Shown here: piece by piece, positions 42,530 to 48,969 of the stretch
Layout: every line of letters starts with the position of its first letter
Position numbering within the stretch: the first letter of the stretch is position 1
Source of the DNA: Pseudodesulfovibrio sp.
GTDB taxonomy: Bacteria > Desulfobacterota > Desulfovibrionia > Desulfovibrionales > Desulfovibrionaceae
Length of the DNA: 64,000 nucleotides
Reading direction: 5' to 3'
Assembly (NCBI RefSeq): GCF_028692895.1
Contig: NZ_JAQUWN010000007.1
Location: 20,819-84,818, forward strand
Translations under genes and position numbers: made by a program
The notes under the pieces: generated by a model
What the model was told of the DNA's origin: nothing
The model's input: the letters and a program-made list of their open reading frames with translations, nothing else
The model's database searches: none

Positions 42530-43783
42530 TCAGCCGTCGCGGCCGGGGGAGAGCCGCCAGAACAGCTCCTCGAGCAGGGCGGAGAGGTCGGCGGAGAGCC
42601 CGCCCGGCTCGGGCGGCACGCCGAACAGGGCGGCGCGCTGCTCCCTCAGCCCTTGCTGGGACACGGCCTCCGGGTCGGAGTGGAACACGGTCATGGCCAG
42701 GCGTTCGGCCAGCAGGTAGCCCGAGAGCCCGCCCGTGAAGAGCTCCATGAGCACCTTGAACCGGTCGCGGTGCCGGTGCCAGAAGGCCACGGCGTCGTCG
42801 CCGGGCCGGGCGGCCATGGCCTCGCAGACGAGCGAGTAGAGGGAGTTGATGCCCGCGCCGGGGATGCCGCGCCGCCAGCCCAACAGCCAGGGGTTGCGCC
42901 AGAAGAGCAGGAAGTGGCTGGTGCCGGTCTCGATGATCCGCTCCATGGCCGCCCGCGCCTCGGCCAGGACCGGATCGTCCCAGGACACGGGCCGCGCGGC
43001 CACGTCCCAGGCGGGCACCGGCCCGCCTTCGAGGGGCTCGTCCAGGGCGCGCTCCAGCAGGTGGAGCAGCCAGCGGTTGGCGTCCGGGGAGGCCGGGGTC
43101 TCCAGGTGGGCGTAGCTCAGGATGACGCGGCCCGCGCCGAAGCCGTTCTCGGCCACGCAGGGCTGGCCCCGCATGAAGTCGGGGCTGAGCTGGATGCCGT
43201 AGAGGTGCTCCCAGTCCGCGGTGGTTCCCTTGGGCAGGGACGCCAGGTGCAGGTCCGCCACCCAGAAGTCCGGGCCGGGCGCGCCGTAGCTGGCCAGGGT
43301 GGTGACGCCGTCCGCCGCCGGGTCGAACCGTCCGGGCCACCACACGGGCAGCATGGCCGTGGCCCCCAGGTCGTCCGGCACCAGGGGATGGCCCGCGGTC
43401 AGGGCGACCTCCACGTGGCCGGAGAGGAAATGGTGCAGCCGGTTTTGGTAGCCCTTGCGCGTCCAGGGGGAAAGGCCCAGGCCGGACCGGCCGGTCAGGG
43501 CCAGGCCCGCGCCGCCGCAAAATCCCAGGTAGGTCCCGCCCCTGTCCACGAAGTCGCGGATGGCTGCCATGCCCGCCGGGCCCAGCCGGTCCGCCTTGCC
43601 CCTGGCCCGGCCGCCGGGCACGATGAGCAGGGCCGGTGGCTCGCCGGACTTGCCTCCGAGCACGCCATCGGCTATCTCTGTGCCACGCACGAGACGATGC
43701 GGTATGGCCCACGCCGTCAGGGCGCGGGCGACCAGCAGTCCCCAGAAATGCGATTCGTCCCAATACACGTGGATGCTTGACAT
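42530..43783 (-). CDS. Biotin-protein-ligase N-terminal-like (BPL_N, GATase1-like) domain protein
   Basis: MSSIHVYWDESHFWGLLVARALTAWAIPHRLV...ALLIVPGGRARGKADRLG...VDRGGTYLGFCGGAGLAL; no ligase domain visible. Confidence 0.75.
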   Translation of the reverse strand: MSSIHVYWDESHFWGLLVARALTAWAIPHRLVRGTEIADGVLGGKSGEPPALLIVPGGRARGKADRLGPAGMAAIRDFVDRGGTYLGFCGGAGLALTGRSGLGLSPWTRKGYQNRLHHFLSGHVEVALTAGHPLVPDDLGATAMLPVWWPGRFDPAADGVTTLASYGAPGPDFWVADLHLASLPKGTTADWEHLYGIQLSPDFMRGQPCVAENGFGAGRVILSYAHLETPASPDANRWLLHLLERALDEPLEGGPVPAWDVAARPVSWDDPVLAEARAAMERIIETGTSHFLLFWRNPWLLGWRRGIPGAGINSLYSLVCEAMAARPGDDAVAFWHRHRDRFKVLMELFTGGLSGYLLAERLAMTVFHSDPEAVSQQGLREQRAALFGVPPEPGGLSADLSALLEELFWRLSPGRDG

Positions 43784-43926
43784 ACTCGGCTCTCTTGACA
43801 AGGGTAGTCCGACGCTATCAAAGGCTTGCGCCAAAGCGCAAGCGTAACCACACGAAATTTCAGGCCGTCGGGGGAGGCAGGGAGCCAACGCCCGCCGGAC
43901 GAGCCGATAAAAGGAAGGAAATCTCA

Positions 43927-46593
43927 ATGTCTCGCAAAGAGCTGGCCAAGGCCTACGAGCCCTGGGATGTCGAGGAAAAGTGGGAAACCCACTGGGAAGA
44001 GGAGAAGACGTTCACGCCCGACCCCGATGGTCCGGGCGAGCCCTATTCCATCGTCATCCCGCCGCCCAACGTCACCGGCGTCCTGCACATGGGCCACGCC
44101 CTGAACCAGACCCTGATGGACATCCTGTGCCGCTACAACCGGCAGAAGGGCAGGAACGTCCTGTGGGTGCCCGGCACGGACCACGCTGGCATCGCCACCC
44201 AGAACGTGGTTGAGCGCCAGCTCAAGGCCGAGGGCCTGACCCGCCACGACCTGGGCCGCGAGAAGTTCATCGAGCGCGTCTGGCAGTGGAAGCAGGAGAA
44301 GGGCGACCACATCTTCAAGCAGATCCGCCGCATCGGCGCGTCCGTGGACTGGACCCGCGAGTGCTTCACCTTTGACGAGCAGCGCGCCCGGGCCGTGCGC
44401 GAGGTCTTTGTCCGGCTCTACGAGCAGGGGCTGATCTACAAGGGCAACTACATCATCAACTGGTGCAACCGCTGCCACACCGCCCTGGCCGACGACGAGG
44501 TCGAGCACGAGCCGCGTCCCGGCCATCTCTACCACATCAAGTACCCCCTGGCCGACGGCTCGGGCGAGCTCGTGGTGGCCACCACCCGGCCCGAGACCAT
44601 GCTCGGCGACACGGCCATCGCCGTGAACCCCGAGGACGACCGCTTCAACCACCTCATCGGCAAGGAGGCGATCCTCCCGCTGGTGGGCCGCAAGCTGCCG
44701 ATCATCGGCGACAAGTACGTGGACATGGAGTTCGGCACCGGCTGCCTCAAGGTCACGCCCGCCCACGACATGAACGACTGGGAACTCGGGCGCAAGCACG
44801 GCCTGGAGGTGCTGCCCATCCTGGACGAGGACGGCAACGTCAACGAGAACGCGCCCGAGCGCTATCGCGGCCTGCACAAGGAAGAGGCGCGCACCGTCAT
44901 CTGCACCGACCTCAAGGAGCAGGGCTTCCTGGTGGACATCCAGGAGCACGACCACTCCGTGGGCGCGTGCTACCGCTGCAAGTCCGTCATCGAGCCCCAC
45001 GTCTCCACCCAGTGGTTCGTGTCCATGAAGCCCCTGGCCGAGAAGGCGCGGGCCGCCGTGCCGTCCAGGACCCAGATCTTTCCCGAGCACTGGACCAAGA
45101 CCTACTACGACTGGCTGGACAACATCCGCGACTGGTGCATCTCGCGCCAGATATGGTGGGGCCACCGCATCCCGGCCTGGACCTGCGAGAAGTGCGGGGC
45201 GCTGACCGTGTCCGTCGACGACCCGTCCGCCTGCTCCTCTTGCGGCTCCAAGAACATCGTCCAGGAAGAGGACGTGCTCGACACCTGGTTCTCCTCCGCC
45301 CTGTGGCCGTTCTCGACCATGGGCTGGCCGGACGACACCGCCGAGCTGCGCAAGTTCTACCCGACCTCCTGCCTGGTCACCGGGTTCGACATCCTGTTCT
45401 TCTGGGTGGCGCGCATGATGATGATGGGCCTCCAGTTCATGGAGGACGTCCCGTTCCATCACGTCTACATCCACGCCCTGGTCCGCGACGAGTTCGGCAA
45501 GAAGATGTCCAAGTCCACGGGCAACGTCATCGACCCGCTGGACATGGTGGACAAGTACGGGGCCGACGCCCTGCGCTTCACCCTGACCAGCTTCGCGGCC
45601 ATGGGCCGGGACATCAAGCTCTCGGAGCAGCGCATCGAGGGCTACAAGCACTTCATGAACAAGATATGGAACGCGGCCCGGTTCTCGCTGATGAACCTGC
45701 CCGACGTCATCCCGGCCGAGGACGTGACCAAGGCCGAGGGGCTGGCGGACCGCTGGATTCTGCACCGGCTGGAGGAGGTCAAGGCGGAGGTCGCCTCGGC
45801 CACCGAGGAGTATCGGTTCAACGAGATCGCCCAGATCCTCTACAAGTTCATCTGGTCCGAGTTCTGCGACTGGTACCTGGAGATGATAAAGCCCGCGCTC
45901 TACGGCGAGGACGAGGCCGCCAAGGCCCGGACCCAGGCCGTGCTCTGGACCGTGCTCTCCGAGACCCTGGTCCTGCTCCACCCGGTCACCCCGTTCATCA
46001 CCCAGGAGATCTGGTCCGTGCTGCCGCGCCCCGAGGGCGACGACCGCAGCGAGGACATCGCCACCCTGGCCTATCCCGGACGGCGCGAGGGCTGCCTCGA
46101 CCCGGCGGTCGTGGGCCAGATGGAGCTGTTCATGGGCGTGGTTTCCGGCATCCGCAACATCCGCACCGAGCTGCTCATCGAGCCCGCCAAGAAGCTCGAC
46201 CTGCTGGTGCGCACGGTCGGCCCGGAGGACGAGGCCGTGCTCACGGACAACGTGGGCCTGATCCGTGCCCTGGCCCGGGTGGAGAACGTGACCATCGGCC
46301 CGGACGTCAAGGGGCCGCACGCCTCGGGCGCGGCCGTGGTCCGGGGCAACGAGCTCTCGGTGCCGCTCAAGGGCGTGGTGGACTTCGAGTCCGAGATCGC
46401 CCGGCTGGACAAGAACCTGGCCAAGCTGGAGAAGACCATGAAGGGCGTCTCCGGCAAGCTGGGCAACCCCGGCTTCGTCAACAACGCCCCGGCCGAGGTG
46501 GTCGAGGGCGAGAAGAATAAGCTCGCCGGGATGGAAGAGGAAAAGGCCAAGCTCGCCCAGCTCAAGGCCCGGCTCGAGAGCGTGATGGAATAA
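43927..46593 (+). CDS. valS: Valyl-tRNA synthetase
   Basis: PPPNVTGVLHMGHALNQTLMDILCRY, VPGTDHAGIATQNVVE, KMSKSTGNVIDPLDMV; SD aaggaaggaaa before ATG 43927. Confidence 0.98.
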   Translation: MSRKELAKAYEPWDVEEKWETHWEEEKTFTPDPDGPGEPYSIVIPPPNVTGVLHMGHALNQTLMDILCRYNRQKGRNVLWVPGTDHAGIATQNVVERQLKAEGLTRHDLGREKFIERVWQWKQEKGDHIFKQIRRIGASVDWTRECFTFDEQRARAVREVFVRLYEQGLIYKGNYIINWCNRCHTALADDEVEHEPRPGHLYHIKYPLADGSGELVVATTRPETMLGDTAIAVNPEDDRFNHLIGKEAILPLVGRKLPIIGDKYVDMEFGTGCLKVTPAHDMNDWELGRKHGLEVLPILDEDGNVNENAPERYRGLHKEEARTVICTDLKEQGFLVDIQEHDHSVGACYRCKSVIEPHVSTQWFVSMKPLAEKARAAVPSRTQIFPEHWTKTYYDWLDNIRDWCISRQIWWGHRIPAWTCEKCGALTVSVDDPSACSSCGSKNIVQEEDVLDTWFSSALWPFSTMGWPDDTAELRKFYPTSCLVTGFDILFFWVARMMMMGLQFMEDVPFHHVYIHALVRDEFGKKMSKSTGNVIDPLDMVDKYGADALRFTLTSFAAMGRDIKLSEQRIEGYKHFMNKIWNAARFSLMNLPDVIPAEDVTKAEGLADRWILHRLEEVKAEVASATEEYRFNEIAQILYKFIWSEFCDWYLEMIKPALYGEDEAAKARTQAVLWTVLSETLVLLHPVTPFITQEIWSVLPRPEGDDRSEDIATLAYPGRREGCLDPAVVGQMELFMGVVSGIRNIRTELLIEPAKKLDLLVRTVGPEDEAVLTDNVGLIRALARVENVTIGPDVKGPHASGAAVVRGNELSVPLKGVVDFESEIARLDKNLAKLEKTMKGVSGKLGNPGFVNNAPAEVVEGEKNKLAGMEEEKAKLAQLKARLESVME

Positions 46594-46598
46594 AAAAA

Positions 46599-46624
46599 CG
46601 AAGCCCCTCCGGAGAGGGGCTTCG
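46599..46624. terminator. Hairpin after valS (CGAAGCCCCTC-CGGA-GAGGGGCTTCG) with A7 on its 5' side and no T-tract on its 3' side
   Basis: Perfect 11-bp stem immediately after the valS stop; the A-run makes it look like a terminator for minus-strand transcription. Confidence 0.6.
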
Positions 46625-46728
46625 CATTGAACCTTGAGGACGTCACCGGCTGGAACCGGGAGGGGTTTCTCTCAAGGACAGCAAGGCAGATATATACATC
46701 CCGGCGGGAAAAGGCAAGACGTTTGGGC

Positions 46729-47424
46729 ATGACGGGCGATTCCCCGGAATCGGGGCGGGTCGAGGAACTGGTGCGGAGTCTGTCCGTGGAGCGGCTCCAG
46801 CCGTACCGGTTGCCGAAGAAGGTGTCGCCGGACGAGGGCGACTACGACTGGCTGCTCCGTTACGTGTGGAACATCCGGCTTTGCGAGTCGCTGTATCCGG
46901 GCCTCCAGAATCTTGAGACAGCCCTGCGCAACGGCATGCACGGCGCGCTTTCCGCCGCCTACGGGACGGAGTTCTGGTTTCGCGAGGAAGGGCTGCTCGA
47001 CGGCCATGAACGGAAACTCCTGCTGCGGGCCGAGAGCCATATCCCCGCCAACCGGCGGAAGGTGGCCGGGAAGTACGTCGCCGAGCTGAATTTCGGGTTC
47101 TGGGCGTCCCTACTGCACCGGCGGTATCACGACTCGCTGGTGCCCAAGGTGATGAAGGCCGCCTTTCCCCGCAGGACGCAGCCGCTCAAGCGCTCCACCG
47201 TGGCCGGGGAGCCGGAGGCCATCCGCAAGCCTCGGAACAGGGTGTTCCATCACGAGCCGATCTGGAACAACCCGCAGCTTGCGGCCTTGCACAACCTTAT
47301 TTTGCAGTATATCGCTTGGCTCAATTATGAGCTGTTTCTCGTCACCAGGGGCGTGGATCGTTTTGAGGAAGTCCACGGGGCGGGAACCGCTCCCTACAAG
47401 GAAACCATTGCACAAATCGGCTAG
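46729..47424 (+). CDS. Abi-family protein (AbiD/F-like, HEPN-like)
   Basis: YDWLLRYVWNIRLCESLYPGLQNLETALRNGMHGALSAAYG, and RNRVFHHEPIWNNPQL containing RNxxxH; ATG 46729 preferred over the TTG-initiated longer ORF at 46627. Confidence 0.8.
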   Translation: MTGDSPESGRVEELVRSLSVERLQPYRLPKKVSPDEGDYDWLLRYVWNIRLCESLYPGLQNLETALRNGMHGALSAAYGTEFWFREEGLLDGHERKLLLRAESHIPANRRKVAGKYVAELNFGFWASLLHRRYHDSLVPKVMKAAFPRRTQPLKRSTVAGEPEAIRKPRNRVFHHEPIWNNPQLAALHNLILQYIAWLNYELFLVTRGVDRFEEVHGAGTAPYKETIAQIG

Positions 47425-47445: not shown

Positions 47446-48969
47446 ATGACCACCGCACATACCGCAAACGTCTTTCTCGTCGGAGCCGGTCCGGGCGATC
47501 CGGGCATGCTCACCCTGCGCGCCAAGGAGATCATCGAGACCTGCGACATCATGATCTACGACTATCTGGCCAACGCCGACTTCCTGAAGTGGTGCAAGCC
47601 GGATTGCGAGATCCTCTACGTGGGCAAGAAGGGCGGGGCGCACACCCTGCCCCAGGACAAGATCAACGACCTGATCGTGGACAAGGCGCGCTCCGGCAAG
47701 ATCGTCTGCCGCCTCAAGGGCGGCGATCCCTACGTCTTCGGGCGCGGGGGCGAGGAGGGCGAGGAGCTGGTGGAGGCGGGCATCGACTTCGAGGTCGTGC
47801 CCGGCATCACCGCGGGCGTGGCCGCCGCCGCCTATGCGGGCATCCCGGTCACCCACCGCGACTTCACCACCTCGGTCTGCTTCATCACCGGGCACGAGGA
47901 CCCCACCAAGGAGGAGTCCGGCAACAACTGGTCGGTCTACGGCCGGTCCAACTCCACCCTGGTCTTCTACATGGGCGTGGGCAACCTGCCCATGATCGCC
48001 GAAAATTTGATGCAGAACGGCCGCGCCGCCGACACCCCGGTAGCCCTGGTCCGCTGGGGCACGCGCTGCAACCAGACCTCCATGGTCTCCACCCTCGCGA
48101 ACGTGGCGGCCGACGCCGAGGCCCGGGCCTGGAAGTCCCCGTCCATCATCGTGGTGGGCGGCGTCTGCTCCCTGCACGACAAGCTGAACTGGTTCGAGAA
48201 GCGGCCCATGCTCGGCAAGGGCGTGGTCGTGACCCGCGCCCGCGAGCAGGCCAGCGGACTGGTCGGCGCCTTGACCGGCCTGGGCGCGTGCGTGCACGAG
48301 TTCCCGACCATCGCGGTGGAGCCGCTCGACGACTACAACGAGGTCGAGACGGCCATCCTCCAGCTCGCCCGCTGCCAGTGGGTGGTCTTCACCTCGGTCA
48401 ACGGGGTCAAGTTCTTCTGGAACCAGCTCGCGGCCGTGGGCCTGGACTCCCGCATCTTCGGGGGCATGCAGATCGCGGCCATCGGGCCCGCCACGGCCGA
48501 CGCCCTGCGCGAGCGCGGCATCATCCCGGACTTCGTGCCCGACAAGTACGTGGCCGAACACGTGGTGGCCGGGCTGCTGGAGCGCGGCATCCAGGGCAAC
48601 GACGTGCTCATCCCGCGCGCCAAGGTCGCCCGTGAGGTCCTGCCCGAGGAGCTCAAGAAGGCGGGGTGCAACGTCACGGTCCTGCCGGTCTACGAGACCA
48701 AACTGGTCCAGTCGTCCGGCGAGGAGATCGAGGAGGCCATGAAGAACGAGGCCATCCAGTACGTGACCTTCACCTCCTCCTCCACGGTGGAGAACTTCTT
48801 CGAGCTCATTACCCCGGACACGCTCCGCTGCTGCCCGGACGTGAAGCTCGCCTCCATCGGCCCGGTGACCACGCGGACCATCGAGAAGTTCGGCTTCAAA
48901 CCGGCGGTGGAGGCCACGGACTACACCATCCCCGGACTGGTGGAGGCCCTGCTGGCCGACGGAAAGTAA
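47446..48969 (+). CDS. cobA: Fused uroporphyrinogen-III C-methyltransferase / uroporphyrinogen-III synthase (CobA-HemD)
   Basis: FLVGAGPGDPGMLTLRAKEIIETCDIMIYDYLAN, RLKGGDPYVFGRGGEEGEELVEAGIDFEVVPGITAG; second half GKGVVVTRAREQASGLVGALTGLG...VVFTSVNGVKFFW (HemD). Confidence 0.95.
   Translation: MTTAHTANVFLVGAGPGDPGMLTLRAKEIIETCDIMIYDYLANADFLKWCKPDCEILYVGKKGGAHTLPQDKINDLIVDKARSGKIVCRLKGGDPYVFGRGGEEGEELVEAGIDFEVVPGITAGVAAAAYAGIPVTHRDFTTSVCFITGHEDPTKEESGNNWSVYGRSNSTLVFYMGVGNLPMIAENLMQNGRAADTPVALVRWGTRCNQTSMVSTLANVAADAEARAWKSPSIIVVGGVCSLHDKLNWFEKRPMLGKGVVVTRAREQASGLVGALTGLGACVHEFPTIAVEPLDDYNEVETAILQLARCQWVVFTSVNGVKFFWNQLAAVGLDSRIFGGMQIAAIGPATADALRERGIIPDFVPDKYVAEHVVAGLLERGIQGNDVLIPRAKVAREVLPEELKKAGCNVTVLPVYETKLVQSSGEEIEEAMKNEAIQYVTFTSSSTVENFFELITPDTLRCCPDVKLASIGPVTTRTIEKFGFKPAVEATDYTIPGLVEALLADGK

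Follow-up and report, generated by a model that had tools for sequence, protein, structure and literature searches.

A HEPN Abi gene at the valS/cobA junction of Pseudodesulfovibrio and its divergent candidate RNA antitoxin

The stretch of DNA analysed here (the window) covers 64,000 nucleotides of a Pseudodesulfovibrio contig and carries a gene of the abortive infection type, abi, in the gap between valS and a cobA-hemD fusion (Table 1). Translation of the abi ORF is free of stops and the gene is present once in the genome. abi is a real gene, given that orthologs occupy the same junction in related species, that dN/dS lies at about 0.09-0.13 and that residues R169 and H174 are invariant. An earlier note on this DNA, made from the letters alone, had placed abi between valS and cobA-hemD and an RNRVFH motif within it, and both placements agree exactly with the ORF limits and residue numbers found here. 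Elsewhere in the window a single plus strand ORF of about 8113 aa (3962-28303), with an N-terminal SYFEQLEPRQLLSG-like motif, resembles a giant repetitive surface or secreted protein.

Table 1 Features of the abi locus, with positions counted along the window
Feature	Positions	Strand	Basis or remark
valS	43636-46593	+	ORF limits, start codon not assigned; valS-cobA synteny in the genus
Candidate RNA antitoxin: predicted ncRNA of about 90 nt, divergent from abi	46592-46682	-	Four-species conservation, fold z -4.7, R1/R2/R3 matches, covariation
Intrinsic terminator ending the RNA, with a 12-bp stem and T run, abutting the valS stop	46592-46625	-	
RNA core: stem A (46671-46677 with 46632-46638), internal loops CCCCUCC / GUGACG, stem B	46625-46681	-	R2 match (E 2.8e-14), A4 pair counts
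Promoter-like site of the RNA: -35 TTGCCT (46712-46717), 17-nt spacer, -10 TATATC (46689-46694)	46689-46717	-	Four-species alignment; match weak in the window, stronger in relatives, which lie above control
abi, 231-aa HEPN protein, PD-T4-5-like branch of AbiD/F (Abi_2)	46729-47424	+	
RNRVFH (R169-H174), HEPN RNase motif	47233-47250	+	Residues 169-174
cobA-hemD fusion (TP_methylase-HEM4)	47446-48969	+	Domain search

The assignment of the protein to the HEPN and AbiD/F families, which had been made in the earlier note, is backed by a match to the PADLOC PD-T4-5 profile (E 3.5e-16, with the best stretch in the N-terminal part), by the conserved RNxxxH motif and by the fold match described below. 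In Pfam, Abi_2 (PF07751) scores 14.0 bits against a gathering cut-off of 25.6, a cut-off which relatives from E. coli and Klebsiella (L175, L176) exceed. A profile from the AbiD/F side matched with an E of 0.0066, NCBIfam returned no match, PHROGs returned an unnamed family only, and no relatives were found in the viral contigs searched. Of 80 homologs 75 carry RNxxxH, and neither R169 nor H174 varies across the 53 proteins of alignment A7. An AlphaFold2 model built from 53 homologs reached a pLDDT of 93 and has RNRVFH closing a helix at residues 155-173, in keeping with the R-x4-6-H motif of the HEPN superfamily. The best Foldseek match of this model was 8vz6, the structure of PbAbiF with its ncRNA (probability 1.00, TM 0.68/0.54), at an E of just 0.012; the remaining listed PDB matches have probabilities below 0.1 and are noise, leaving PbAbiF as the sole meaningful PDB match of the predicted fold. 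PbAbiF binds the RNA AbiFr, and AbiFr neutralises AbiF (PMC12737573). From profile and model together we assign Abi to the PD-T4-5-like branch of the AbiD/F HEPN proteins.

Within the genus abi is carried by 4 of 36 genomes, each time at the valS/cobA junction. The orthologs of the three other species are 69-73% identical to the window's protein, and the named relative is Pseudodesulfovibrio pelocollis. Wherever both genes could be located valS and cobA are syntenic, and at other junctions of the genus the gap between them shrinks to as little as 12-15 nt (L098, L102, L115), which suggests an operon. One genome (G008) is the sister of two carriers yet lacks abi, and the tree requires at least two changes. 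Third-position GC of abi is 0.82 in the window and 0.55-0.66 in the other carriers, as compared with 0.95-0.96 for valS and cobA, and dN/dS by NG86 is 0.13 and 0.09 for the two estimable pairs (0.14 by YN00 for one of the two). The codon composition of abi is foreign and purifying selection acts on the gene, a pattern that marks it as an accessory gene of sporadic occurrence, kept under selection. The universal, housekeeping-like conservation that the earlier note had set against a defence role was not found, with presence being patchy and the codons atypical. Two further junctions hold other sequence. In G020 (L114) the place of abi is taken by a gene whose product, of 302 aa, has a restriction endonuclease domain (Mrr_cat), and the junction may be a small hotspot for defence genes. 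In G031 (L116) 1.25 kb separates valS from cobA, and as its reading frames repeat identical peptide stretches it looks like duplicated sequence rather than a gene.

Within the 135 nt 5' of abi lies a block that is nearly identical among the four species and missing from empty sites. The block folds stably on both strands (z-scores of -4.7 for the minus and -4.8 for the plus strand). Between it and abi the minus strand letters TTGCYT, a 17-nt spacer and TATATC/TATGTA are kept in all four species. A strict consensus promoter scan of the window gave no promoter for the RNA; its -10 box there is poor, and the four Pseudodesulfovibrio loci fall short of a strict sigma70 pattern. The predicted RNA would start some 48 nt ahead of the abi start codon. 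A terminator scan found no plus strand terminator between valS and abi. The earlier note had described abi as solitary, with no antitoxin in sight, and as either acting alone or autoregulated, possibly by an RNA to be sought at 46600-46728. The first of these descriptions gives way to the structured RNA partner found on the opposite strand; the guess of control by an RNA is strongly supported, but the RNA is read from the minus strand, away from abi. The idea that the CCUCUCC loop occludes a Shine-Dalgarno sequence was given up because GGAGG is missing at the abi start.

We built a covariance model (R1) from the four Pseudodesulfovibrio minus strand sequences and searched 738 kb of distant Abi loci. 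Apart from the window's own matches, 14 more scored E<1, every one of them on the minus strand just upstream of abi, the best being in Methylococcaceae (3e-6), Phycisphaeraceae (2e-5) and Massilia (3.5e-5). R1 also matched weakly in other genomes of the genus (L122-L125, E 0.001-0.06); no abi was detected within 1.5 kb of these matches, and they were taken as chance. The final RNA set spans about ten phyla as named in record titles, many of the records being metagenome bins: Desulfobacterota, Pseudomonadota, Planctomycetota, Verrucomicrobia, Bacteroidota, Bdellovibrionota, Vampirovibrio, Chloroflexota, Armatimonadota and Cyanobacteria. Its core reads, in order, G-N-stem A, YCCUCUCC, stem B with its loop, GUGAUG(AA), stem A' and usually a T run. 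The pairing was assessed on an alignment of 12 sequences (A4) made with MAFFT blind to structure, the structure then being assigned by hand. Here 93.8% of cells form pairs, covariation reaches 0.683, a value attained by 0 of 500 shuffled alignments, which give 0.312, double-change cells number 33 against 12 in shuffles, and sliding the partners by one column halves the pairing. A second alignment (A5), which is fitted to the structure through a covariance model, has double changes at all 12 of 12 pairs.

In the 150 nt upstream of abi, 48 of 77 loci have a terminator-like stem (at least 6 bp, span 25-80 nt, T tail) on the minus strand and 9 of 77 have one on the plus strand, against 10.7% of controls, and directly before the RNA 5' end a TAnnTTTG box is found at 17 of 19 Bacteroidota loci (1.4% of controls) and a sigma70 pattern at 8 of 16 non-Bacteroidota loci (1.0% of controls), all of these being counts that include near-copies and are not independent. 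Every abi-linked copy of the RNA lies on the strand opposite abi. Some copies are found at the other end of the gene, again on the opposite strand: at the abi 3' end in L039 (2187-2248), L078 (5625-5682, a weak match at E 0.6) and L183, and also downstream in L160.

Starting from the RNA rather than the gene, R3 gave 19 matches in 17 of 30 whole genomes with Abi homologs, including two previously unseen ones that are both divergent from and adjoining a second abi gene. Among 297 Bacteroidota and 399 Pseudomonadota genomes there were 17 and 6 matches respectively, 21 of them new. R2 over 247 Desulfobacterota genomes matched only the window's genome. An abi gene lies within 1.5 kb of 8 of the 21 new matches, on the opposite strand, with two matches flanking one gene, one (L183) overlapping the abi 3' end and one (L182) about 425 nt from abi; another (L155) adjoins, again on the opposite strand, an abi fragment with a stop. 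Around the other 12, called orphans, no abi was detected to a distance of 1.5 kb. Among the orphan copies L147, L148, L153, L154, L180 and L181 retain intact loops, and several are near toxin-antitoxin-like genes. Read from sequence without a domain search, the orphans inspected in Chlorobia-like genomes are near BrnT/BrnA-, HigBA-, VapC- or HsdM-like genes, and L181 is near a type IV antitoxin-like gene. It is possible that orphans are anti-addiction RNAs or remnants. At the alphaproteobacterial, actinobacterial, campylobacterial and many of the Verrucomicrobia homolog loci R3 found no match, and only analogous minus strand hairpins are seen. Such clade-specific hairpins upstream of abi (L054-L065, L034, L040, L024, L073, L031) come from alphaproteobacteria, actinobacteria, Verrucomicrobia, Campylobacterota and cyanobacteria, and could represent additional RNA families belonging to this system.

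A comparison of 29 Abi-homolog loci with Rfam 15 gave nothing above gathering cut-offs except tRNAs. On the minus strand of the window, rnk_pseudo, STnc100 and istR were centred on the terminator hairpin and fell far under their cut-offs, and were set aside. For the abiF RNA (RF03085), a search as far as E 10 of the regions from the window, L015 and L034 gave no match. Its sequence differs (CCCGCCAAGCCUCU...GCUCAAAUC-GGCGGG), and in a reference locus (L126, one example) it lies on the abi gene strand, as opposed to the window-type RNA; by the covariance-model search of these three regions, by sequence and by strand the RNA is not RF03085. In the loci compared the RNA has no Rfam family, and the main limit on its novelty is the further AbiF covariance models made in the Cas13-origin study of Zilberzwige-Tal et al. 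2025 (named in PMC12804078), which may already include it. We tentatively propose, at somewhat less than even odds, that HEPN Abi genes of about ten phyla are counter-transcribed by RNA antitoxins of a family not catalogued before, with clade-specific variants and with orphans that, kept in defence or toxin-antitoxin islands of other genomes, may be anti-addiction RNAs.

We read the locus, with a probability of about 0.62, as a two-part toxin/RNA-antitoxin defence module similar to AbiF/AbiFr, with the RNA counter-transcribed and probably keeping the Abi toxin silent. abi would encode a dimerising HEPN endoribonuclease that is weakly expressed by read-through from valS, which is likely because no plus strand terminator was found and valS and cobA are nearly contiguous in some relatives. 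Counter-transcription of the RNA would restrain abi further. The short, self-terminating RNA would fold as a two-stem hairpin whose invariant internal loops bind the Abi dimer in the manner of AbiFr and inactivate it. Upon phage infection or stress, RNA synthesis would halt or the short-lived RNA would be removed, and the stable Abi protein, once freed, would cut RNA and bring the cell to arrest. Counting against such a module, known AbiF RNAs are on the gene strand, so that a promoter or antisense role of a divergent RNA could suffice. Also on that side are the 12 of 21 RNA-first matches with no abi detected, the clades with no R3 match and the poor -10 box of the window.

A type I-like arrangement, where the divergent RNA pairs with the leader of the abi mRNA and blocks its translation or stability without any protein binding, is in our view unlikely. 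Divergent and antisense RNAs are usual in type I systems, and an abi message arising upstream of 46682, by an overlapping promoter or by read-through from valS, after which no plus strand terminator was found, would carry the perfect complement of the RNA. However, pairing with its own complement needs neither internal-loop letters kept across phyla nor compensating stems. RNA copies also exist away from any abi and, on the opposite strand, downstream of abi (L039, L078, L183, L160), and in PbAbiF, the relative by fold, it is the protein that binds the RNA. Loop conservation, orphan copies and copies downstream of abi favour a trans-acting RNA over a pure antisense or a pure terminator. It is less probable still that abi acts alone as a defence RNase and that the divergent hairpin is a mere terminator or insulator carried along with it. 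Many RNA copies do end in a T run and are terminators by sequence, and orphan copies occur near other toxin-antitoxin genes, but a terminator needs no conserved unpaired loops, no covariation in a second stem and no 5' promoter boxes, and every linked copy is opposite to abi. A structured, riboswitch-like 5' leader of abi on the plus strand is highly improbable and was dropped on the strand signals: the plus strand folds about equally well and RCd22 of C. difficile acts partly as a leader (PMC12373285), but terminator and promoter signals lie on the minus strand, copies are found downstream of abi or without it, and the distance to the start codon varies.

The proposed toxin/RNA-antitoxin module shares its logic, an RNA that inhibits an RNase by binding it, with the type III toxin-antitoxin systems ToxIN, CptIN and TenpIN. 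The toxins of these systems have a fold unrelated to that of the window's Abi, and their RNA consists of tandem repeats encoded upstream of the toxin and on its strand, whereas the window's RNA is a single copy on the minus strand. In the type I system IstR/TisB the RNA gene is divergent from the toxin gene, as in the window, but the toxin is a small membrane peptide, unlike Abi, and the RNA acts by base-pairing.

PD-T4-5, the best family match of the window's protein, is a plasmid-borne E. coli gene for which abortive-infection defence was shown by experiment, and it is described as a distant AbiF/D relative (passages of PMC9519451). Those passages treat PD-T4-5 as a protein and mention no RNA partner, whereas the window locus has a candidate one. 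Plasmid loci of the PD-T4-5 type from E. coli and Klebsiella have a minus strand hairpin with a CCUC-rich loop and no R3 match. The window's protein matched 552 plasmid records; PD-T4-5-type Abi proteins are widespread on plasmids and, in the parts of the literature consulted, are handled as single-protein defence genes. If each has a divergent RNA, these systems would consist of two components, and how they are cloned, annotated and triggered would need re-reading.

The closest likeness is to AbiF/AbiFr, which shares with the window a HEPN protein of Abi_2 type, the RNxxxH motif, the PbAbiF fold and a short, self-terminating two-stem RNA with an internal loop beside the gene. The AbiF of C. 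difficile is a toxin that depends on R202/H207, and RCd22 neutralises it by binding it directly (PMC12373285); R/H mutants of AbiF lose toxicity (PMC12373285, PMC12737573). The window differs in that its protein falls under the Abi_2 cut-off and its RNA has another sequence on the opposite strand; AbiF RNAs are on the gene strand, co-transcribed and carry two motifs, and the window's RNA is divergent and single copy. Since AbiF is the proposed Cas13 ancestor (PMC12737573), an RNA family of another kind on a sister branch would make it testable how HEPN toxins acquired, exchanged or re-oriented their RNA partners. If the proposed family is real, the AbiF side of Cas13 ancestry would have arrived at an RNA solution for the second time.
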